Position numbers and translations under genes: made by a program | NCBI GenBank assembly: GCA_015227615.1 | Contig: JAALGZ010000036.1 | Span: 248,001-312,000 of the forward strand | DNA from: Labyrinthula sp. Ha | Lineage: Eukaryota > Sar > Bigyra > Labyrinthulida > Labyrinthulaceae | Direction: 5' to 3' | DNA: 64,000 nt | The notes under the pieces: generated by a model | What the model was told of the DNA's origin: nothing | What the model saw: only the letters and a program-made list of their open reading frames with translations | The model's database searches: none | Part shown: positions 2,814 through 23,473 of the stretch, piece after piece | Position numbering within the stretch: position 1 is the first letter of the stretch | Layout of the letters: each line of letters begins with the position of its first letter

Positions 2814-4624
2814 TATTCGGCCTGAAGTCCATCTCTACTTACAGAATCAGTTAACTTCTTAATCTGCTTCTATCTTACATTAGTTCCTCCCGGAATACAC
2901 TCCTCCTTTTACTAGAAAACCTTCAGCATATCTCCCCTAGAAGCAAGACTGTACAGGGGCTGTGCGAAACCCCATGTATTCTCATTCCCTTAATTTCAAG
3001 GAGAGGCTTAGAGTGTACCTAAAATAATATTTTTTTTGAAGGCGAGTATAAAACAATGATAAACTCGATTGGAATAAGTAGAACCCCTAAAGTACGCCTT
3101 TGTTGGAAGCTAAACTATGCTGCTAATCTACCTTCTTCTTTGTTTTAAAGTTGTCTTGTTTGTACACCCACAAGTTAAACTTGCGAATATTTATGTCTTT
3201 CCTTTCCTTTAGTGATGAGTGCAGTAAAAAATGGCACACAAAGACGAATGTGTTTTGAACTCCACGATCATTTCCAATAGCTCTCTCTCTCTTGAATGTT
3301 AGTTAAAACAATCTATTTGCACTCTCTTACTTTTCTTCGAAGCCAACAGAAGCTGTTTGTCATAGAATGTAAGGGTCTTCTGCCTTTAGTATTACTCAAT
3401 ATTCCCATCCTATTTCTTATATGTAATTTAATTATGTGCCCAACAGAAGAATGCGTTTTCCCAGCATCGGCCCGAGATAACTCTTATCGGACAAAATGAA
3501 AAAAGGTGGCCGTTTTGTATTGAGCTCACGAGAGCTTCGGGAGCAATTCAATATCGAGATTCAAGATCTCTATTCTTAGTATGATATTGAAATAATTGAA
3601 GTACACACTAACTAGAACTTCCTTAATAGTCGTCTTGATATCATTTCTATAGCAGAGTCATGTGTCTTTGGGTCAATTTTAGGGATTTTAAGCTTCAACT
3701 CTCTACAATAATATGCAACCTTGTGTTGGATAAATGGTAGCGAAGAAACCCGTGGGGAGTTAAGAATTATACTTCACTACAGGCTGTATGCCCTGGAGTA
3801 TGAGCCCATATCATCTTTTGTTTACAGAGCAATTAGTATCCTGGTTATATCTATACCCTGTATCAGGCACCTACATCTAGGGTCAGATAGGTTGTTATTG
3901 TTGAATACCGAGTTGGAGTTTGGAAGGTTAAGATACTTTGAAGAGCTATTGAAGTTCTTCAAATGGGCCTATATGAACGAGTTGACTTTCACGAAGTTAT
4001 TGTTACTACCCAAAAAGTTTCGTAAAGAGCTTTGAATTTATTTTAATATCGTCAAGCTATCAATGAGAATATTTTCTTTTTCTGCGGTCAACGTCCTTTG
4101 TGAGACTAAATAGAAACTCTGTCTCTCATCCAGTTTCCATCACAGAATGTTTATGCTCAACAGACTTCTGTTTATCGGTACCAATACAATATACATATCG
4201 AATTAAACAAATCAATATCAATACTATCCCGTATTTTCTCGAAGTTTCAAATTCCGGTAATTATTCATCGGAGTTGTATCTGTGCTAATATACCCATCCA
4301 ACCTGAATTAAGCTGGAATTCCACGAACTAATTAAGAAACTTCCCAGCAATAGAAGTAGAATGCCGTTCATGCACCTTAAACAATGTGCAACCTTTTTCT
4401 TTTGCACATAATTTTTGTTCATATAATATCTCTTGTTCTAAGATGATAGGCCTAAGAGATTGAAGAGGTAAGAGTTCATGCACAAAGTATGTTGTGCGTA
4501 CATATGGAATAACGCAAACAATATTAATGACCACAGGTTCTTGTCCGAGCAATAACAGTACAGCAAAGTGAAACTGCTCGAAATAAAACGCAGAAAAAAA
4601 AATAAAACAATTTCCGGTGAAATA

Positions 4625-5185
4625 ATGCTTCCACTTGTAGTTCGTAAGGTTGAAATCTTGTTCATAAACATCAACCTTCTAAACAATGCACTATGCCTAA
4701 GCTTGAACTGGTTAACTTATTGGAAACTAACAACTCTAGTTGAAGTCGATCGATTCGGCCTTACAGAAGAGATAAGAAAACTTAGAGATATTATTGCACT
4801 TCTTGGGGTTTTGCAAATAGGTTTCCTGTTTCTCTCGCTACGTGACAAAAGCTTCCGCGTCGAGTTATTGATGGTAGATTTTTCTAAACTGTTTTTCATG
4901 TGCTTGTGTATTCTTCAACTTCTCGAGATATACCGAGGGACAACCTTCTGGATGATTAACAACGAATTTGGTGATTTAACTCAGTATAATAGTGGGACGC
5001 TTACTTTTACCTTTCAAATTCAAAAAACTCTTGTTTATGAGTCGGTTATTATATCAGTAGTAACACTACTTCATACCATTCTACAACTTGTTCATGGAAG
5101 TGTTTTAGAGTATTATAGATTAAGGAGAAAATGTTACCCAGAGACAACTATAGAAGTAGAAAACCAAAAGCTTACACTGGTTTAG
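4625..5185 (+). CDS. Family A multi-span membrane protein, copy 1 (A1)
   Basis: The product is 186 aa from the ATG at 4625; the open frame extends a little further upstream but without an ATG. It has three or four hydrophobic segments and a short polar tail. It is clearly homologous to A2 (12705-13265), which has exactly the same length. Shared blocks include YWKLT, a KLRD motif, the stretch around ELL.VDF.KL, LQLL, MIN.E.GD and LLHTILQ.V. I do not recognise the family. It lies about 600 bp upstream of B1 on the same strand, and the A-B arrangement is repeated at 12.7-24.1 kb, so the two genes were duplicated together and may act together. Position in a membrane follows from hydrophobicity; any function would be a guess. 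Confidence 0.8.
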   Translation: MLPLVVRKVEILFININLLNNALCLSLNWLTYWKLTTLVEVDRFGLTEEIRKLRDIIALLGVLQIGFLFLSLRDKSFRVELLMVDFSKLFFMCLCILQLLEIYRGTTFWMINNEFGDLTQYNSGTLTFTFQIQKTLVYESVIISVVTLLHTILQLVHGSVLEYYRLRRKCYPETTIEVENQKLTLV

Positions 5186-12598: not shown

Positions 12599-12704
12599 AA
12601 TGAGTTTTACCGTTAGACTTCTACCCGCTCAACAACAAAATACGAAACAAGAAGTGCCCAACGACGAGTAAAACAGTAACAAAACCAAACCTACCAAAAA
12701 AATT

Positions 12705-13265
12705 ATGAACTTAAACAAAACGTGGGAAACTAGAGCAGGTATCGTAAATATGAAGGTGCTAAATATTCTTGTCTCTGTAAACCTGGGTTATATTATCTAC
12801 TGGAAACTCACAAATTTACTTGAGGTTGAAAAGTTTGGCGACACAACAGATCTAACAAAACTGCGTGATGTGACATCAATATTTTCAGTTTTAGAAGCAT
12901 GTTTTATGCTTCTCTCTTTTCAGTATAATGGTTTCTACTCTGAGTTACTGCTGGTGGACTTCTGTAAACTACTTATATTGTGTCTGTCTGTTCTTCAACT
13001 CTTAGACCTTTACCATAAATTAAACTTTCAGATGATTAACCACGAGTTGGGTGACTCTATTCAACACAATACTATAGAGGTGCTCTTGGTTTTCCAAGTT
13101 CAAAAGATTCTTGTAGTTCAAACTCTTTGGATATCCATACTATCTCTACTTCATACAATTCTCCAAATGGTTCAAACCTCTCTTTCTAAGTATAACCAAA
13201 AAAATATTAATTTGGCACAAAAAAGTGCTTCTGAAATGCCAAACCAAAAATATATGGTTGTCTAG
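12705..13265 (+). CDS. Family A multi-span membrane protein, copy 2 (A2)
   Basis: The product is 186 aa from the ATG at 12705 and is the paralogue of A1. By eye it shares somewhat under half of its residues with A1, including YWKLTNLLEV, the KLRDV block, ELLLVDF.KL, LQLLDLY, MINHELGD and SLLHTILQMV. It has several hydrophobic segments and no recognised domain. The downstream DNA begins like that of A1 (AGCCTTTTATATA). The partner gene B2 now lies 10.4 kb away because an LTR retroelement sits between them. If that element (13675-23473 plus its target duplication) is subtracted, the A-B spacing is about 610 bp, as in copy 1. Confidence 0.8.
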   Translation: MNLNKTWETRAGIVNMKVLNILVSVNLGYIIYWKLTNLLEVEKFGDTTDLTKLRDVTSIFSVLEACFMLLSFQYNGFYSELLLVDFCKLLILCLSVLQLLDLYHKLNFQMINHELGDSIQHNTIEVLLVFQVQKILVVQTLWISILSLLHTILQMVQTSLSKYNQKNINLAQKSASEMPNQKYMVV

Positions 13266-13674: not shown

Positions 13675-14166
13675 TTTGTACACTCGGTAAACCCTCGAGC
13701 GTTCAGACGTATGAGAACGTGCTACCACAGTAGAACGACTGCGTTCTACGTCTCTCTGTATCCAAAGTAACTATTGGATACAACTAGATCGCTCTTATTG
13801 CTAAGGGATCTATCCACAGACTTTGTAAGGGCTCTCTTCAAGCCACAAACTCCGATACTATGCTAAGTATCAATGCAATAAACTCACAAGGCGTTGTTAA
13901 CACTCAGGGGTTTCTGCACTTATCGAAAACTGTGTCTTAGACGAAAATCTATGAAGTTTTCAAAATGTTGTTATTATCTATTAACTCTATTTCTGATCGC
14001 CCAAAATACATATGTGATATTTATTCTACTTACAATTATTCTATAGGTCTTCAATTAACTTACACAAGTAACCATACTGTTGACAATAACTCAAATACTG
14101 TATATGTTATACGAAGTTAGTTAAATAACCCAAGTTATCTGAAACGTTACTAATTAAACATACACA
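13675..14166 (-). repeat. 3' LTR of the retroelement
   Basis: On the plus strand it runs from TTTGTACACTCGG to AACATACACA; on the element strand it starts TGTGTATG and ends TGTACA(AA), the usual TG...CA form. It matches 22982-23473 with a single difference seen by direct reading. Confidence 0.93.
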
Positions 14167-14180
14167 TCCCCCTTCTCATC
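14167..14180 (-). other. Polypurine tract
   Basis: On the element strand GATGAGAAGGGGGA lies immediately before the 3' LTR (TGTGTATG). This is where plus-strand priming occurs in LTR retroelements. Confidence 0.7.
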
Positions 14181-15980
14181 TTAAAAGAGGTGTACCTCTT
14201 TTCCATTCGTCGACATACCACAACCAAAGGCAACCCCACTTGATCGAGGATCGACTTCGAATCCCAATTGAACCCAGTCTTTTCGCAAGTTGCAGCACCT
14301 TGCGAAAAGCTCAACCTTAAGGGTGTTCCTTCCAAATACTGACTCAAAATATTCATAAGCCTTCAAAGGCTTCGTACCATTTTCTAACCGATCAGCCCAC
14401 AATAACTCTGTTTCTCTCAGCTTATGAGTCTCATCAAGAACCTTCTCTTTCTTAGTTCTAGACACAAACACTAGCAGCATTTCTGCCGAGTGTTGAAAGT
14501 AATAACCCAAAGATGTACGCAAGACCCCTGACTTGGTACATTTAATCCAGTCAACTATGTTAACTAAGTCATACTGGTGCTTGTCAAAATGTTGTAAGGT
14601 TCTGCCTAAATTCCTTTTGATAACCCAGATAGCAATGAATGCCGGCTTCATGTTCTCAAAAGGTATATCGAGGACCTCAGAATCTTTGCATTTAGGATAT
14701 CGAGTTCGGATCCCTCTCACAGGATTAAAGGTTCCAGTGGCCCATGGTGGATCGACGAGGAGAAGATCTATCTCATCACCTGGCCATGAAGCAACGGTAT
14801 CTCCTTCATAAATATCAGCAAAATACCAAGTTCTCTCTCTAGGGAATATGCAGACCTTTACCGAAAAAGGCCACGACTCACCCGACAGGTCAAATATATT
14901 GCCATACAGTTTGGTCAAAGTGAAGTTACCTATATTATCTACTTGCATAAATATCCTTAAGTCAGAGCTAGTCTCTATACTCTCACTACTTATTTGAACG
15001 TTTTCTACCGTTTCAACCAAAGTTACGGTTCTACGGTCATCCAAAATATATCCTTCAGGGTTACTTGCAAACGATAACCCCTCGAATACATACTTTGAGA
15101 TTTCCAGCCATAAACCTTTTACTTCAGTCAATTCTTGCAAGCAGTCTCTCACCTTAGACACATCCTGTCTCGCTTTTGATTGCATTCTTTCTACTTGTCT
15201 GCAGAACGCTTTTCCTGCACCCTCTGGTATCACGAAGCTCATCAATGATTTCGCCGTCTCAAAAGAATCATACTTCCACGAACACAGAATATTCTCCACT
15301 GGAAAATTATATTCCTGCTTTCGGTCTTCCGAGGCTATATCAATTTTTCTACCATTGAATCCGGCCAAGCTCATGATTCCCATAGTTCTCTGAATATATG
15401 AGTACATCATTGCCTTCGATTTATGTGGCATGAACTTCGTAAACGACTCAAAGTCGCCCATACCGAAGCATTTTACGAGACATCTCATAACAAATTTATC
15501 CAACTCAGACCAATTCTTTACGTAGAAAGGAACATCCTCTCGTTCCTCCCACCAGTTACCTTCAACTAGGAGATGCGATCTCAGATTAGGCCTCATTTTA
15601 CCAACCCATCTAACATTGATATCGCCTAGGATATGTCTCTCGATCCAGGCCATAGCCCTCTTCGAGTTTCTTTTATCCCTTACAGGCTTCCTCTGATTCT
15701 CTAAGTATTTTATGACAAGTGATTTGACATCTCTATACATAGACCTGAGAGGTTCCCAAGTATCATCTCGAGATTCGAACCCTTTCCAATGGACATGTAA
15801 CCACCATTCTCCATTAGAGTATCGCAATCCATGGAACCTCCCCACTTCAAGCTCACCCCAATTATTGATAAAGATTTTTCTCAATGCGTCATCCGGCACG
15901 TACCCTGAGGGCTCGTAAAAATACAACCTTGAAGCATGAGCCGTTAAGGTCATACCGTTCAAGAGTCGCACCCGATACAC
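14181..15980 (-). CDS. Retroelement ORF3: chromodomain, SANT/Myb-like, MT-A70 methyltransferase
   Basis: An open frame of about 599 codons downstream of pol. Residues 45-95 look like a chromodomain (RYSNGEWWLHVHWKGF, then DDTWEPL), which chromoviruses carry at the integrase tail. Residues 155-215 resemble a SANT/Myb-type domain (NWSELDKFV, CFGMGDFESFTKFMPHKS, YIQRTMG). Residues 385-577 are an MT-A70 domain: LLLVDPPW at about 406-413 carries the catalytic DPPW of METTL3-type N6-adenine methyltransferases, followed by the IWVIKR, DWIKCTKSG and HSAEMLLVF blocks and a KPLKAYEYF...VELFARCCN..DWVQLG tail that matches the end of METTL3/MTA proteins. The family methylates N6 of adenine in RNA or DNA. 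That the element uses it to mark its own nucleic acid or its target chromatin is inference. Confidence 0.9.
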   Translation of the reverse strand: MYRVRLLNGMTLTAHASRLYFYEPSGYVPDDALRKIFINNWGELEVGRFHGLRYSNGEWWLHVHWKGFESRDDTWEPLRSMYRDVKSLVIKYLENQRKPVRDKRNSKRAMAWIERHILGDINVRWVGKMRPNLRSHLLVEGNWWEEREDVPFYVKNWSELDKFVMRCLVKCFGMGDFESFTKFMPHKSKAMMYSYIQRTMGIMSLAGFNGRKIDIASEDRKQEYNFPVENILCSWKYDSFETAKSLMSFVIPEGAGKAFCRQVERMQSKARQDVSKVRDCLQELTEVKGLWLEISKYVFEGLSFASNPEGYILDDRRTVTLVETVENVQISSESIETSSDLRIFMQVDNIGNFTLTKLYGNIFDLSGESWPFSVKVCIFPRERTWYFADIYEGDTVASWPGDEIDLLLVDPPWATGTFNPVRGIRTRYPKCKDSEVLDIPFENMKPAFIAIWVIKRNLGRTLQHFDKHQYDLVNIVDWIKCTKSGVLRTSLGYYFQHSAEMLLVFVSRTKKEKVLDETHKLRETELLWADRLENGTKPLKAYEYFESVFGRNTLKVELFARCCNLRKDWVQLGFEVDPRSSGVAFGCGMSTNGKEVHLF

Positions 15981-16094
15981 ATTATTGCTAAGTACCTCCT
16001 GTATTAGTACAGGGCCAGACCACTCAAGCTTAATCTTGTTGGTCTCCCTCGGTGTCTTAGCAGTGCTAATGAGACACCACTCGCCTACCTGTTA

Positions 16095-19000
16095 TTAGAG
16101 CAAAGCCTTATCAAAGCGCTTTCTCCTCTTATTCCAGTAGGCATTTCTTTTAGACTTCATCAGGGACACATAGTCAGCAACCCGACCATGATACTCCTCG
16201 AGTTGATCTCGAAATTTCTTCGACAACTTAAACAAGGTGTCCCCTTCAGTATCTATTACCTTCACTTCCCCACCTACCTTTCTCGAGATCAACCTCGGAA
16301 AAGCAGCAGCCTCAATATAATCCTTTTCGGGATTTATGAACAGGAAAAGTTGGTTCGCACAAGGCGCCTTACTCTCCCCTGGAAGCTTCCTAGACATGAT
16401 AGGTAGATCGTTCATTGCCGCCTGTATAGTGCCCAGTACTAAAGGCCATTCATCCCATTGATATCTTCTCTCCGATACAAGGGCCTTCAAAAAGTCAAGT
16501 ACTTTTTTGTGTACCACCTCAATTTCGCCATTCGTCCAACTTGCGTAACTTACCGCAAAGTTATGGGTGAAACCAAGGGCCTTACTCAATTTTTCCACCA
16601 CTTGGTTAGCGAAGTGAGATCCTCGATCTGTCACCAGGGTGAAGTTCGATTCTAACTTCCAATTACTGTTGAAATCTTCTAAGGCAGATACCACTGTCTC
16701 GGCGTCAGCCTTAGGTGCGTATTTTAAATAGGTGAACCTCGAGAAAGCATCTGTCAATACGAGTATGTACCCCTTCGGATTAACATACAAGTAGTCGGAC
16801 ACTAGCACTTCTCTTGGTGCCCTAGCCTCAGTGACTATGCTTAATGCAGTCTTCAATAACGAAGGTCCCTTTCGACAGTGAGCGCAATTTACTTTAAGAT
16901 CTTGAAAGATGCTCTGTAAAGTTGCCCCTTCACCATATGTCTTAGGGATGATCCATGCATATCTTGAAGCTTCCGCCACACAGGCACTCACCGGTCCATG
17001 ATGACCCGCAAGGTGAATATGAACCATCTGTCTCTCAAAAAGAGTTTCAGGTATCACAACCTTGTCGCCGGCTCTTGCCAGTTTGATGCCGTCGCCAAGT
17101 CCTTCAGCTTTCTGACCATCAAGCAGTTCGGCCTCAGAGATGCGCTTCCACGAACCTTCATAATATGGGTTGAACGCTGAGACTCGATCCTTATCGAAGG
17201 CTCTCATCTGTTCATACGTTCTTTTCTCCCTTTGTTTATTCGGGTTCAGTCTGACAGCGTTCACCGTGACCCTGAGTATCTCGTCATCTTCGGTTGCAGT
17301 ACCAAGATCTTCGATCGTTGGACCCGAAGACTCCTCGTACTCGGCTTGTTCTGTTACCCAATCAAGGATATCATCGAAGGTCACCGCTGACTCATCGACA
17401 TCCTTGAGAAGAAACTCCTCTCGAACCTTTTCTCTAGGCTTCCTTGCGAATGTCAGGCCCCCATCCTGACGAGTTTCATACTTGACGTCATCGTCGAGAT
17501 ACCAAGTGTCGAAGCTATCCTGGTCAAGCATCGACCTAACCTTGATATCCTCGGGTGCTCCAGGGACCATCTCCCTTAGCTGCTCAAGCTCTTGGTCGGT
17601 CGGTGATACGAACATCCTTCTGTAGAAGTTACGTTCCCCTGTATCCAAGGATTCCGGAGGTGGATCCCTAACCAAAGCCCTAGCGGCTCTAATCTCTCGG
17701 TCTTTTTCTTTGACCCGGGCTGCCCACCTTGACAGCATATCGGCGAAGATGTTACTTTCACCATCTACGTGGTAAAGTTCAACCTGAGCCTGCTGCAAAG
17801 TCAGCACCCACCTTTGTAGCCTATTAAGGTGTTCATGGTTAATCCTGGATCCACCCTTAATTATGGCTCTGAGGTTCATATGATCCGTGTACACCTGTAT
17901 TGGCGTTGGATGATATAGTAATAAATACGAAAGACGACTGAACGTCTTCACAATCGGGTAAAGTTCCTTATGAACGATACCCCACCTCTGTTGATCCTCG
18001 GCAAACTTACCAGAGAAAAACATCATAGGAAACACTGTCTTCTTCAACAATGACTTACTCCTCTCAGATGACCCAGCTTGAAATACTATAGCGCTATGGT
18101 ATTCCTTGCTGGCATCTGTCACCAGTAACAAATCCTGGTTACGGTCATAAGTCTGCAGCTTCTGTTTCGCCGCTATAGACAAGATCCTTTTGAACTCCTT
18201 GAAGTTGTCAGACAATTCGTCCGACCACTCGACACGTTCGTTCTTGCGTTTCAGGTCAGACTTTTCCCCCTTCATTTGTGGGTACTTAGCCATAACCTTA
18301 CCCCTAAGCTCCCCGAGCTTCGGTATGGCCAGTGATAGCCATTGCGCAAGGTGAAGTATCGCCGCGAGTTGATATACAAACTCCGGCCTCGGAACTTCGA
18401 GTATTTTCTCATAATACTCCTTGTTAAAGTTCCATTTTCCCCCTTCTACCTCTCTTCCGCAATAACTAATCCTAGTCGAGAATATGGTAGATTTCTGAGG
18501 ACTGATCCTTACTTTAACCCTCCGAAGGTTTTCAAAGAATCCCTTCAATACTTTGATGAAATTATCAAAGTTGTCTGCGTAAATCAGACTGTCATCAATC
18601 CATTGGATGATGCCATGACCATGTCTACCCTCGACTTTTCTGCCCACCACATGCTTCACCATCTGCTGATGAAAGAACACGGGGGTCGAGTGGTATCCCA
18701 TGGGTGCGAAGTTCAACTGATAGGTCCCATGTTCGGACACTATATTGAAATACTTCTTCGCTTCTTCGGTGATGCCAAGCTGGTCAAACCCGGACACCAC
18801 ATCGAACGAAGCATAAAACTTGCTCTGAGCGAGATTTTCGAAACTCTTTTCCAAAAAGGGTAGCTGATTAACATCGCGACGCAAAATTTTATTCACGTCG
18901 ATTAAATCAACTACCATCCTAAGTTTGTTTCCTTTCTTAGGAACGGCAAAGACCACGGAACCAAATTCCGCAGCCGGCACTAGTTTCAAGAGCTTCCTTT

Positions 19001-19940
19001 TCTCCATACTCATAATTTTTTCCTTTATGAATCTGCTCTTTTCAGCAGATGTCGGCCTAGCTCTGGGGTACTTGAACTCGTAATTCTCCAACGGGAACAC
19101 GGGCATAGGCTCCAGCTTACTTATGCGGGTCTGCGAATGGTCCGTTGCGAACACATCCCAGTACTCCAAGCATAAAGCTTTTAGCTTCTTCTTCATCTCC
19201 ATCGAGGCATCCGTTGCCTTAGAGATCATAGATGATATAGCCTCCCCTATCTCTATCTCCTCAGAGACTGGGTCAACTTCTTCATCCACGTCAGGTAATA
19301 AAATATCACCCAAGTCATCGTCAGCGATGTCTTCTACATGCCTTTTCAGTCGGATGACCTCTCCAAAGTCGATACCGGAGGTATCACTAGTGTTTATTCT
19401 CTCAACTAAGTCAACACTAGTCTCGGTGTTGCGTACCCACAACATCCCGGGGACTTCCACCTTCGTCAGCCCCACTCTCTGGGCTTCCACTGCCTGCCTG
19501 ACCTCAGCAAGGTAGTGTGCGAAGGAGTCCCCTACCACCACATGCTCGTGGTAGGACGATAGCCACCTGCTATCACCCGCCAAGGCGTCCCTTTGCAGGT
19601 TGTTGATAAGACTATGTTGTTCGTCAGTGATCAGCTGACCCACCACAACCATGGTCTTTTGCTCTCTACGAAAAAGTTGTCCATCCTCTCGAACCTTGAT
19701 CTTGGGAAATACGTTGACACTTCCGCCCTGCAGAAGCGAAAGCATCTGTATCACCCGATCAAGTTCCTCAGGTAGACCACCTTTCACAAGCAGCACATTT
19801 TTCTGCTTTTGTCTAACGACCTTATTCTGGTCAATATTCTTACCAAAAAGGTAATATCTACGGATCTTTAAGGACGATCCACCCCTGCCCCAACGTAAAA
19901 CGCGGATGTACTCCAATAACTCGTATTGGTGAAAACTCAT
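16095..19940 (-). CDS. Retroelement pol: RT, RNase H, integrase
   Basis: A frame of 1281 codons from an ATG. The first 250 residues are not recognised. RT spans about 290-500, with YPRARPTS, the FDVVSGFDQLGI block and WIDDSLIYAD as the catalytic motif (WIDD at 447-450, in place of the usual YxDD). RNase H follows, with LLLVTDASKEYHS, HKELYPIV, VYTDHMNL and YHVDGESNIFADMLSR. Near 985-1250 is integrase, with a zinc-binding HIHLAGHH...CAHC region and a catalytic core with D at LVSDYL, D at LVTDRGSHF and E at NGEIEVVHK. The order RT-RNase H-integrase defines Ty3/gypsy. No aspartic protease is present here; it is in the gag ORF. Confidence 0.92.
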   Translation of the reverse strand: MSFHQYELLEYIRVLRWGRGGSSLKIRRYYLFGKNIDQNKVVRQKQKNVLLVKGGLPEELDRVIQMLSLLQGGSVNVFPKIKVREDGQLFRREQKTMVVVGQLITDEQHSLINNLQRDALAGDSRWLSSYHEHVVVGDSFAHYLAEVRQAVEAQRVGLTKVEVPGMLWVRNTETSVDLVERINTSDTSGIDFGEVIRLKRHVEDIADDDLGDILLPDVDEEVDPVSEEIEIGEAISSMISKATDASMEMKKKLKALCLEYWDVFATDHSQTRISKLEPMPVFPLENYEFKYPRARPTSAEKSRFIKEKIMSMEKRKLLKLVPAAEFGSVVFAVPKKGNKLRMVVDLIDVNKILRRDVNQLPFLEKSFENLAQSKFYASFDVVSGFDQLGITEEAKKYFNIVSEHGTYQLNFAPMGYHSTPVFFHQQMVKHVVGRKVEGRHGHGIIQWIDDSLIYADNFDNFIKVLKGFFENLRRVKVRISPQKSTIFSTRISYCGREVEGGKWNFNKEYYEKILEVPRPEFVYQLAAILHLAQWLSLAIPKLGELRGKVMAKYPQMKGEKSDLKRKNERVEWSDELSDNFKEFKRILSIAAKQKLQTYDRNQDLLLVTDASKEYHSAIVFQAGSSERSKSLLKKTVFPMMFFSGKFAEDQQRWGIVHKELYPIVKTFSRLSYLLLYHPTPIQVYTDHMNLRAIIKGGSRINHEHLNRLQRWVLTLQQAQVELYHVDGESNIFADMLSRWAARVKEKDREIRAARALVRDPPPESLDTGERNFYRRMFVSPTDQELEQLREMVPGAPEDIKVRSMLDQDSFDTWYLDDDVKYETRQDGGLTFARKPREKVREEFLLKDVDESAVTFDDILDWVTEQAEYEESSGPTIEDLGTATEDDEILRVTVNAVRLNPNKQREKRTYEQMRAFDKDRVSAFNPYYEGSWKRISEAELLDGQKAEGLGDGIKLARAGDKVVIPETLFERQMVHIHLAGHHGPVSACVAEASRYAWIIPKTYGEGATLQSIFQDLKVNCAHCRKGPSLLKTALSIVTEARAPREVLVSDYLYVNPKGYILVLTDAFSRFTYLKYAPKADAETVVSALEDFNSNWKLESNFTLVTDRGSHFANQVVEKLSKALGFTHNFAVSYASWTNGEIEVVHKKVLDFLKALVSERRYQWDEWPLVLGTIQAAMNDLPIMSRKLPGESKAPCANQLFLFINPEKDYIEAAAFPRLISRKVGGEVKVIDTEGDTLFKLSKKFRDQLEEYHGRVADYVSLMKSKRNAYWNKRRKRFDKALL

Positions 19941-19994
19941 ATATTAAAATACACTGTTAACTTTAATTATATCCACAATTAACATAACTACGTT

Positions 19995-20088
19995 GGGCCA
20001 AACCGAAGACCCTAGTTTTCTACTTAACCAATTTACATTATTTATATATTTATAACATAGAAAACTAGATCCCGAATTTACTTGGCCC
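19995..20088 (-). other. Stem-loop in the gag-pol spacer
   Basis: The 177-bp spacer between gag and pol contains two nested inverted repeats: GGGCCAA (19995-20001) with TTGGCCC (20082-20088), and CTAGTTTTCTA (20012-20022) with TAGAAAACTAG (20058-20068). All base pairs are perfect. The structure could help translation or RNA processing of pol, but no mechanism is shown by the sequence. Confidence 0.6.
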
Positions 20089-20117
20089 ACCAGGTGGCTA
20101 ACCTGGCTGCCGCTTTC

Positions 20118-22961
20118 CTACCCGAGCTCCATATTTTGCTCGGGTAACAAGTGCATCATTCTTAGTGCGGGCTTTCCGATTAGGAAATAATCCCAATCCC
20201 CGGCCACTAATAGCACACGTTGCCCATGCACCTTCCGCCTCAGTTTACCATTTTTAAAGACGTTGAGGTCGATACGTCCAGCCTTGACAACAGGACTGAT
20301 CCTCCCGTTGGCAGAGGTCACCTGTCCCTCGGCATCCTTCACATCTTTGCAAAACCTCACGTGTTTGCCATAAGATGCTACTACGGCATCCGCCCCTGAG
20401 TCCATCATCGCGTCCTTGATTTCCTTGAACTCATGGTTGAACACCTGCATGCCTTCACAGGGTCTAGGACTCACCGACTTAGCAATGAAAGTCCTAACCA
20501 GAGGCGGTTTCTTGGTGGCGATGTATTGCACCTCACTCGAGTCGTCACTGAGGACTTCCCGTTTCGCCCTGGGTTTTTGGTTTAGCAAACTTGCTCTCTT
20601 GCGAGGAACATCAGCCAACCTAGGACAGTTCCGGGAATAATGGCCATACTCTTTACAGCGATAGCACTGGATCGTTGCCATATAGTTAGCATTCCCCTGT
20701 CCCTGCATTAGCTGCGCCTGCCTTTGCATAGCAAGTGCTTTCCTTTTCTTGCGCCTCTGCGATTTAGTTTCAGGGGGTCCGCTCCCCACAGCCAACGCGT
20801 TCGCACTTGTCGGCAAATAATCAGGCCCATATTGTGCCTTCTCGCCCCTATCAATGGCCGCTTGTCGCTGAGCTTCAAGGGCTCTCTGGAGAGCATGTAG
20901 CGTAGACAAAGGATTCACATTCGCCGAAATCTTATTAGCTATGATTTCCCTAGTCATCTGCATCTCCTTAGGGCATTTCTTCACGATCATCTCAAAGAGA
21001 TTAGCCTTTTCATGGTTATCAATACGCATAACGTATTGCTCTTTGATGACCTTTCGAATACTCCGGAAAAACTTTGTGAAGTTTTGTAACGAAGTGCCAC
21101 TGTTAGGCCACTTCAACTTCTCCAGAGCACTCATCGGTATATCCGTAGTTTCAGCAAGTAGCCTATCTCTACGCTCCCTTAATACCATTAGGATCTGAGT
21201 AAACTCTCCAGTTGGACACAGGTCATCCAAAAGGTTCCTATCCACGTAAAGTTCAGGCTTAAACATAGGATCCATCTTTTCAGCCGCTTCCGAAACATGA
21301 AGGAACTGGTTGATGGTCTCTATGGACATAGTCTCCGCCGTCAACAGTTGGGGTTTAGGATACCTTGGCCTACTATTAGACGTATTGCCTGAAGAGCTTG
21401 AAGACAATTTCATAACTAATGTCCTCAAGGTTTTATTCTCCGCAAACAACACATCCGTCGTTCTAGCCAAGTCCTTAAACTTCTCATTCAACTTGTACAT
21501 GGAGTTACTCATTATCGCCATGAACTCCGCACTATCCTGCGAATTAACATAATTCATTTTGATAATAGGATAGGCTCTATCCATTGCGTCACTCATGACC
21601 GGCCAATTGTCGAAGATGGACATATCCATTCCATCAAGTATACCTCGATGTTGTGGGTCATCTGTAGACAAGCAGATCTTAGGAACCGGATCCAATGTAT
21701 AAGGTTCCCTTCCACCTGTTTTCTGCTTTAAGAGAGCATGTCTAGCCAGCCTTTCATTCCGAGAAGCTCTAGCATTTATGGCGACTTCGGCGGCGTATTC
21801 TATCGCTTGCTGCTCAGGATTGAGCGACAACCAATTTTCCGTCATATCCTCGAAGTGCCTTCTCTCACGAATACTAAGAGGCTGTCTCTCCATGCTCTTA
21901 TGGTTCGTACTGATATTCGCACGGTCAATTGCGTTGACAACAGCGTCATACCATCTATCAGAACCATTATCTCTGGCCAGAGTGGTCAGGTTCATTGAGG
22001 CTCGTGCGCTTCGACGTGACGCGCCTCTACCTGTACGTATTCCTTCATTCACCTCCGGAATACGATTCCCATCCCTGTCAGGACCAACAGAACCTTCAAC
22101 CACGGATTCCTCGAAATCTACGACCTCTAAAGATCTAACAGATTCAGTCTCCATTGGTTGATACGCTTCAGCATCCCTCTCTCCATACCCAACGTTTGTC
22201 TCGACCTGAGTTTCCGCCACAAGGGCTTGCGTGTCCGGAGGATTCATCAATTGAGCAGAAGGTGCATTCATAGAATACGGAGGGGTAGAAGTAACAGATA
22301 CCGGCACTTGGGAGGATCCCAGAGGTACTCCAGTATCACGTCCCCTTGCTGCAGTAGCCCCAGAGACGTTACTCTGAGTTGAAGCCGCAACCCGCTCAAC
22401 AGGTCTAGAACTTCTGCCATCAGTTGTAGGAACAGTACTTGCCGCGGGGCGGGCAGGAATGGCCGCTGACGTAGCATCGCTGCTCGTCACCCCAGACACA
22501 CCATGACGAGTCACAGTGGTATTGCCCCCAGCTCTAGCTTGTGAGCCAGCAGGCAGCGGAGTAGTCTGTACTTCTTGTACTGCTGATCCAGTATTATCAG
22601 CCGCTGGAACGGTTTCTATATTTGTTTCAGCTGATTCCGCAGCTCTTACTCCTACAGGAGCGTTATGTGCTGACACAGATGTCGCTTGAGTGGCTTGATG
22701 CATACTCACTGGGACTGAACCAGCTCCTTGAGATGCGGCACTGGGCTCAGCTCCGGCAGTTATCCGAGATTGCGTTTGCGCACCCGTTACCGGATCTACG
22801 ATCGTGACCTCACGGTCCGATACACCCGAGGTAACCCGTTCTTGAGAACCCGTAACGTTACCTCCAACGACCTCCCTCACGGGAGTCTGTGCGGCGGCAG
22901 CTTGCCTCGCTGATCTGCGAGGTGGCTTTGCTGCGCCCTTATCACTTTTCTTTCCCGCCAT
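20118..22961 (-). CDS. Retroelement gag with zinc knuckle and aspartic protease
   Basis: A frame of 947 codons from the ATG at 22961, just inside the 5' LTR. The first third is low-complexity, rich in Ser, Thr, Ala and Val. The middle (about 380-720) is a likely capsid region. A CCHC zinc knuckle (CYRCKEYGHYSRNC) follows a KSQRRKKRKAL basic stretch. Near the C-terminus MMDSGADAVVAS is the active-site motif of a retropepsin-type protease. Having the protease in the gag frame rather than in pol is a known but less common layout. The protein is long for a Ty3/gypsy gag because of the N-terminal low-complexity region. Confidence 0.88.
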   Translation of the reverse strand: MAGKKSDKGAAKPPRRSARQAAAAQTPVREVVGGNVTGSQERVTSGVSDREVTIVDPVTGAQTQSRITAGAEPSAASQGAGSVPVSMHQATQATSVSAHNAPVGVRAAESAETNIETVPAADNTGSAVQEVQTTPLPAGSQARAGGNTTVTRHGVSGVTSSDATSAAIPARPAASTVPTTDGRSSRPVERVAASTQSNVSGATAARGRDTGVPLGSSQVPVSVTSTPPYSMNAPSAQLMNPPDTQALVAETQVETNVGYGERDAEAYQPMETESVRSLEVVDFEESVVEGSVGPDRDGNRIPEVNEGIRTGRGASRRSARASMNLTTLARDNGSDRWYDAVVNAIDRANISTNHKSMERQPLSIRERRHFEDMTENWLSLNPEQQAIEYAAEVAINARASRNERLARHALLKQKTGGREPYTLDPVPKICLSTDDPQHRGILDGMDMSIFDNWPVMSDAMDRAYPIIKMNYVNSQDSAEFMAIMSNSMYKLNEKFKDLARTTDVLFAENKTLRTLVMKLSSSSSGNTSNSRPRYPKPQLLTAETMSIETINQFLHVSEAAEKMDPMFKPELYVDRNLLDDLCPTGEFTQILMVLRERRDRLLAETTDIPMSALEKLKWPNSGTSLQNFTKFFRSIRKVIKEQYVMRIDNHEKANLFEMIVKKCPKEMQMTREIIANKISANVNPLSTLHALQRALEAQRQAAIDRGEKAQYGPDYLPTSANALAVGSGPPETKSQRRKKRKALAMQRQAQLMQGQGNANYMATIQCYRCKEYGHYSRNCPRLADVPRKRASLLNQKPRAKREVLSDDSSEVQYIATKKPPLVRTFIAKSVSPRPCEGMQVFNHEFKEIKDAMMDSGADAVVASYGKHVRFCKDVKDAEGQVTSANGRISPVVKAGRIDLNVFKNGKLRRKVHGQRVLLVAGDWDYFLIGKPALRMMHLLPEQNMELG

Positions 22962-22981
22962 CTGAGGAATTGTTATAACAA

Positions 22982-23473
22982 TTTGTACACTCGGTAAACC
23001 CTCGAGCGTTCAGACGTATGAGAACGTGCTACCACAGTAGAACGACTGCGTTCTACGTCTCTCTGTATCCAAAGTAACTATTGGATACAACTAGATCGCT
23101 CTTATTGCTAAGGGATCTATCCACAGACTTTGTAAGGGCTCTCTTCAAGCCACAAACTCCGATACTATGCTAAGTATCAATGCAATAAACTCACAAGGCG
23201 TTGTTAACACTCAGGGGTTTCTGCACTTATCGAAAACTGTGTCTTAGACGAAAATCTATGAAGTTTTCAAAATGTTGTTATTATCTATTAACTCTATTTC
23301 TAATCGCCCAAAATACATATGTGATATTTATTCTACTTACAATTATTCTATAGGTCTTCAATTAACTTACACAAGTAACCATACTGTTGACAATAACTCA
23401 AATACTGTATATGTTATACGAAGTTAGTTAAATAACCCAAGTTATCTGAAACGTTACTAATTAAACATACACA
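22982..23473 (-). repeat. 5' LTR of the retroelement
   Basis: This copy matches 13675-14166 except for one base. Inside it on the element strand is the palindrome TTGTTATAACAA and then the gag ATG. I do not see an obvious tRNA-complementary primer site in that short leader. Confidence 0.93.

Follow-up and report, generated by a model that had tools for sequence, protein, structure and literature searches.

A Ty3/gypsy retrotransposon lineage of Labyrinthula with a predicted p1-AMT1-type adenine methyltransferase module at the integrase C-terminus

A lineage of Ty3/gypsy retrotransposons in Labyrinthula sp. Ha appears to have long carried a captured p1-AMT1 module at the C-terminus of its integrase, and we favour, with moderate confidence, the reading that this module writes 6mA on the element's own cDNA or fresh insertion and thereby helps it to escape silencing. 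Comparison of sequences shows a fusion in the order integrase, chromodomain, p1-like domain and MT-A70, which is present in many copies, is conserved and shares its history with pol; its likely role is to write 6mA on the DNA of the element itself, when this integrates or afterwards.

The element in the window

The window is the whole 64,000-nucleotide stretch that was analysed (G000:C84:248001-312000), lying within a genome of 50.84 Mb in 153 contigs, and the features of the element that it contains are collected in Table 1. The original prediction described a Ty3/gypsy element bearing a genuine MT-A70 domain with DPPW, and this description has held. LTRs, a 4-bp target duplication (GATG) and the order of reverse transcriptase (RT), RNase H and integrase place the element in the Ty3/gypsy group, and the MT-A70 domain is matched by Pfam at 3e-18 (score 66.8 bits, cut-off 23.9), with the catalytic DPPW motif and the fold of the family. 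PF17917 is the profile that we take to be typical of the Ty3/gypsy group. A Pfam search of the window element gave no match to a tyrosine recombinase, rve being present instead, and in neither this element nor its fetched relatives did Pfam find a C5 cytosine methylase domain. The near identity of the two LTRs indicates that the insertion is recent.

The methyltransferase had been assigned to a third ORF, and this has to be revised: ORF3 is the C-terminus of pol, sharing one reading frame with it and parted from it in the window copy by two adjacent stop codons. Among 17 family copies compared (window copy included, the 5'-truncated L026 and L027 left out) these stops are absent from all 16 others, and likewise from L028 of a family at 45% identity, and in three of the 16 another stop stands a few codons downstream. 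From the window copy the enzyme is probably not made unless the stops are read through. Elsewhere in the window, the plus-strand ORFs at 4556-5185 (209 aa) and 12672-13265 (197 aa) resemble paralogous membrane proteins by eye.

Table 1. Features of the window element (positions in the window) and of the protease motif in four relatives (positions in pol)
Feature	Position	Strand	Remark
Ty3/gypsy element, LTR to LTR, 9,799 bp	13675..23473	-	flanked by GATG
5' LTR, 492 bp	22982..23473	-	491/492 identical to 3' LTR
3' LTR, 492 bp	13675..14166	-	preceded by purine-rich tract
gag ORF, 963 aa, stop to stop	20118..23009	-	5' end extends into LTR
CCHC zinc knuckle in gag	20622-20669	-	Pfam zf-CCHC 4.2e-05, above cut-off
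DSGA protease motif close to gag end	about 20391-20408	-	motif pattern only
pol ORF	16095..19943	-	RT, RNase H and integrase core inside
Reverse transcriptase (pol)	18453-18944	-	Pfam RVT_1 1.7e-16
RNase H (pol)	17790-18146	-	Pfam 1.8e-15
Integrase core (pol)	16545-16823	-	Pfam rve 2.7e-10
Two adjacent in-frame stop codons between pol and C-terminal region	16092..16097	-	
pol C-terminal region read as separate ORF (ORF3), 636 aa	14181..16091	-	
Chromodomain-like stretch, ORF3 residues 79-134	15690..15857	-	weak in window copy
p1-like (Myb-like) region, ORF3 residues 184-304	15180..15542	-	p1-region profile
MT-A70 domain, AMT1/MTA1 type, ORF3 residues 442-611	14259..14768	-	DPPW intact
LDSGA motif, L029	pol residue about 1420		
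LDSGA motif, L030	pol residue about 1952		
LDSGA motif, L032	pol residue about 2224		
LDSGA motif, P0019	pol residue about 2211		

Related elements in the same genome

Eight further regions were fetched, picked among the MT-A70 places for the length of their open frames and hence not a random sample. All eight are flanked by LTRs (identity 96.7-100%, two of the pairs being truncated where the stretch or contig ends), and all eight hold RT, RNase H, integrase core and MT-A70 within one pol ORF of 1,756-2,660 aa, which in five includes gag in the same open frame. Duplications of 4 bp are legible in L029, L030 and L033 and ambiguous in L035; none was seen in L034 and L036. The integrase core is matched at 2.1e-5 or better in every case and above the cut-off in three. 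Single open gag-pol frames are those of L030-L033 and L035; in L029, L034 and L036 a single stop separates in-frame gag and pol, as in read-through retroviruses.

The position of the protease varies among these elements. The motif stands before RT in L031, L033 and L035 and near the end of gag in L036 as in the window element; in L029, L030, L032 and the protein P0019 the sole protease motif found (LDSGA) sits between the p1-like domain and MT-A70, which suggests that the protease was relocated in this clade. Pfam protease matches in the relatives are weak.

The chromodomain of the original prediction, a chromovirus trait when it stands at the integrase C-terminus, is clear in the relatives and weak in the element for which it was proposed. 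Five of the eight fetched elements carry it above the Pfam cut-off and three more weakly, and an 11-sequence profile matches an HP1-type chain at 1.6e-9; the window copy by itself stays below the cut-off (Pfam E 0.011) and matches chromodomain chains of the PDB at E 0.0019-0.43.

Abundance and linkage to gypsy elements

The family of the window element comprises 19 copies at 91-100% protein identity, the window copy included, and further families stand at about 45% and 30% identity, many of them collinear across almost the entire region. A genome search with MT-A70 (PF05063) gave 354 candidates, of which 150 were scored and all of these match; when ORF3, METTL3 and METTL14 were added as queries, the distinct places came to at least 244, a count in which fragments of one broken copy may in a few cases be entered separately.

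These places are linked to gypsy pol genes. Of 379 candidate gypsy RNase H places, 150 were scored; 112 of these have MT-A70 downstream on the same strand, at a median distance of 3,052 nt, against controls of 2 with it upstream and 1 with it on the opposite strand, and with the longer MT-A70 list the count is 116 of 150. For integrase, where 150 of 549 candidates were scored and Ty1/copia is included, MT-A70 is downstream in 81 (controls 0 and 1), rising to 60 of 69 where a gypsy RNase H precedes. Conversely, at least 134 of the 207 MT-A70 places tested follow one of the scored gypsy RNase H or integrase places.

Five places first scored as being without MT-A70 were sampled. Three integrase places (L037-L039) are Ty1/copia by the reading of their proteins; L041, an RNase H place, does have an MT-A70 that was missed among the matches listed, so the linkage counts are lower bounds; and L040, a distant gypsy element, has no MT-A70 in its 1,120-aa ORF, which shows that a gypsy lineage without the module is also present. 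At L033, an element of one MT-A70 family directly adjoins one of the window's 45% sister family.

The MT-A70-bearing gypsy group is numerous and has been recently active. Two explanations are rejected: a chance match, by the Pfam cut-off, the fold and the copies, and a single fusion, by the many copies and families. The original prediction had named both a failure of MT-A70 similarity in profile searches and a lone chance fusion with a host gene as outcomes that would overturn it; the domain passes the profile search, and the copies with their linkage to gypsy RNase H speak against the fusion.

An enzyme of AMT1/MTA1 type

By its sequence the enzyme is closest to Tetrahymena MTA1/AMT1, a DNA 6mA enzyme, and not to METTL3. 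Searched against the PDB, the 11-sequence profile matches MTA1 at 2.6e-68, METTL3 at 1.1e-41, METTL14 at 3.3e-22 and a METTL4-like chain at 4.3e-18, and none of the 11 retroelement rows is more identical to METTL3 than to MTA1, although two are ties. A P-x-R-G stretch occurs in all 23 retroelement sequences compared, in MTA1 and in the host AMT1, and is absent from human METTL3 and METTL14, which split off together in the MT-A70 tree (93/88). The profile scores and this stretch rule out a METTL3-type RNA writer as first choice. The AMT1/MTA1 subfamily works with p1, p2 and AMT6/7 (MTA9) and has 6mA activity on ApT in DNA.

DPPW occurs in 15 of the 23 retroelement sequences, the others having DPPY (3), DPAW (4) and DFPY (1); R357 and N360 of the SAM site are kept in all 22 rows with letters there, and S332, a SAM contact of MTA1, is not conserved in the window lineage. 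In the Tetrahymena enzyme, D209A in MTA1 is reported nearly to abolish activity, and the motif of MTA9 is eroded (PMC9852454).

The host itself has a likely AMT1 gene (L008), 56% identical to Tetrahymena MTA1 and 41% to METTL3. A six-frame search of the genome, in which introns could conceal a gene, found no match to METTL3 or METTL14 that scored above AMT1 or the elements. C5-methylase (PF00145) has two places in the entire genome and the YTH domain one, so that the host may possess an m6A system for RNA.

This last place bears on the alternative of an RNA writer, by which m6A would be placed on the RNA of the element to tune its stability, export or packaging. Membership of METTL3 in the MT-A70 family and a Gypsy element of orchids whose m6A eraser works on RNA in vitro (PMC9289625) also lend it something, but the domain is of AMT1 type, it is coupled to a p1-like domain, and the host search just described gave no METTL3 or METTL14 match above AMT1 or the elements; we regard an RNA writer as improbable. 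Of the two substrates that had been proposed, RNA and DNA, the latter appears better supported, because the domain is of AMT1/MTA1 type, has the P-x-R-G stretch and, in the relatives, is preceded by a p1-related domain.

A p1-like domain before the methyltransferase

In the relatives, a Myb-like domain lies between the chromodomain and MT-A70. The stretch from L029 matches p1 in the PDB at 4.9e-17 over 143 residues, p1 providing the sole chains at E 0.01 or better; with a profile the match to p1 reaches 5.9e-21, the next being another Myb chain at 3.3e-7. The window region alone is too diverged to be called singly (E 0.042 to p1 in the PDB), and it matches the p1-region profile at 1.8e-35, a profile built from an alignment (A1) that includes the window sequence.

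When the genome was searched with Tetrahymena p1, the top two matches were stand-alone genes, C1:1284455 (6.9e-34) and C100:135979 (2.6e-31), and 148 more scored places followed (150 scored of 309 candidates). In 113 of the 150, MT-A70 follows on the same strand at a distance of 445-1,020 nt, the controls giving 1 and 0. The C-terminal part of the first stand-alone gene (L048) looks Tudor-like by eye. In the Tetrahymena complex, p1 and p2 are described as potential DNA-binding proteins (PMC9852454). The captured module, as judged by these matches, is p1-AMT1, which joins relatives of a DNA-binding subunit and of the catalytic subunit.

Descent and selection

In the p1 tree a branch (99/95) divides Tetrahymena p1 and both p1 genes of the host from 19 retroelement sequences, and in the tree of joined p1 and AMT1, host and Tetrahymena group together (100/98) against 19 retroelement rows, the cellular pair adjoining the clade of L029, L030 and L032 (90/91). 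A recent capture from the present host AMT1 is rejected, for host AMT1/p1 clusters with Tetrahymena, and with none of the elements, in the joined tree. The tree of MT-A70 only (30 rows) places the AMT1 rows amid retroelement lineages that it does not resolve, and a single retroelement clade is not rejected (AU p 0.351); a single capture is possible, though not proved.

The pol tree (18 rows) has as its clades L029, L030, L032 and P0019; L031, L033 and L035 with their kin; and L036 with L041. Its main clades recur, well supported, in the tree of p1 and AMT1, which indicates that the module has long travelled with pol.

Pooled dN/dS in the window family is 0.06 for integrase tail and chromodomain, 0.132 for the p1-like domain and 0.114 for MT-A70, as measured on 15 of the 19 copies (L018, L025, L026 and L027, partial matches, were left out); nine of the 15 have stops within the region and 14 retain DPPW. 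Stops in many copies, and those before the region in the window copy, are what a functionless passenger or chance fusion would lead one to expect, but the many places, the several deep families, the clades shared with pol, dN/dS of about 0.1 and uninterrupted polyproteins reaching 2,660 aa make this explanation very improbable, and we disfavour it. Purifying selection has likewise been reported for retrotransposons that bear Dnmt (PMC5890265).

A lineage with DPAW (L001-L007, on C2, C115, C117, C122, C85, C70 and C8) is under purifying selection: within two subfamilies, seven sequences in all, the pooled dN/dS of the MT-A70 domain is 0.163, and DPAW is kept in both. This lineage is possibly a non-catalytic partner like MTA9.

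The altered motifs also bear on a further alternative, a targeting module whose chromodomain, p1 and MT-A70 fold bind DNA or chromatin and steer integration, catalysis being secondary or lost in some lineages. It would suit the fusion to the integrase C-terminus, the absence of DPPW from eight of 23 sequences, the constraint on the DPAW lineage and the suggestion that AMT1 binds hemimethylated ApT (PMC12695648). Against it, DPPW is kept in the majority of the sequences compared and in nearly all window-family copies, and R357 and N360 in each of the 22 rows with letters there. We judge such a module unlikely, but less so than an RNA writer.

Outside this genome, two proteins from other sources resemble the elements, at 31-32% identity across some 40% of the query: P0006 (JGI), with integrase tail, Myb and MT-A70, and P0020 (ENA), with RT, RNase H, rve and MT-A70. 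Both are independent; the EukProt proteins P0001 and P0012 are 92-100% identical to the elements, which marks their source as the same or a near species. A scan of viral contigs gave no relatives of P0020. P0008 (ENA) has a pol near L034 (98/97), with no p1 or MT-A70 within its 864 aa.

Proposed role

According to the reading that we favour, 6mA writing by a p1-AMT1 module, the enzyme would be delivered together with the integrase, whether or not released by the protease; adenines of the cDNA or new insertion would be methylated, perhaps with host AMT6/7 and p2; and 6mA would make the new copy resemble an active gene, so that silencing would be escaped. In other protists, 6mA of the AMT1 type is reported near the starts of expressed genes and in transcriptionally permissive chromatin (PMC12695648), and self-methylation would on that account mark the new copy as active. 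In the species mapped in that source, transposable elements are not enriched in 6mA (PMC12695648). ApT content, compared without statistics in the eight fetched elements, the window and two copia elements, gave no clear signature of methylation.

Several points stand against this reading. The catalytic DPPW is missing in eight of the 23 sequences, S332 is not conserved in the window lineage, one gypsy lineage does without the module, and of the subunits MTA1, MTA9, p1 and p2, relatives of two (p1 and MTA1) are recognised in the elements. The weak p1 match of the window copy, the stops before the region in that copy and inside it in nine of 15 copies, the YTH place of the host and the ApT result count against it as well. 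A more specific proposal is that a retroelement with a 6mA writer in its integrase polyprotein self-licenses its new copies, some DPAW sisters acting as non-catalytic reader or partner; this we put forward tentatively, holding it to be slightly less probable than its denial.

Relation to known systems and significance

Captured methylation genes are already known in retrotransposons, namely cytosine methyltransferases, Dam-like domains and an m6A eraser (PMC5890265; PMC9289625). In KnitGypsy-Dnmt3 and SymbioLINE/SymbioDIRS-Dnmt, as here, retrotransposons (in one case a Gypsy element) have captured a DNA methyltransferase of the cell, but theirs are cytosine C5 enzymes, whereas the present ones are of the adenine type MT-A70 and come with a relative of p1 (PMC5890265). 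DIRS elements share an adenine methyltransferase within a retroelement, but theirs is a bacterial-type Dam domain beside a tyrosine recombinase, in contrast to a eukaryotic AMT1 type beside an rve integrase (PMC5890265). The orchid element is likewise Ty3/gypsy with a captured N6-methyladenine enzyme, an AlkB m6A demethylase; however, that enzyme is an RNA eraser, encoded in a separate ORF and recent, unlike an AMT1-type writer fused to integrase in deep families (PMC9289625). The MTA1 complex of Tetrahymena (MTA1-MTA9-p1-p2) has the same type of catalytic domain and the p1-like domain, but as separate cellular subunits, whereas p1 and AMT1 here lie on one polyprotein (PMC9852454). Among the matches listed in a literature search of open-licence PMC papers there was no retroelement with MT-A70 or with AMT1 and p1.

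MT-A70 families are described as relatively static once diversified (PMC12695648), and a genome with at least 244 MT-A70 places is an exception to that stasis. With most of the tested places (at least 134 of 207) behind a gypsy RNase H or integrase, it offers a direct test of the non-enrichment of transposable elements in 6mA reported there (PMC12695648). Young copies with the catalytic motif intact or altered, side by side in one genome, could reveal whether 6mA alone opens chromatin. If the proposed role is true, a retroelement would be giving its new copies the mark that the cell sets on active genes, a strategy opposite to silencing.
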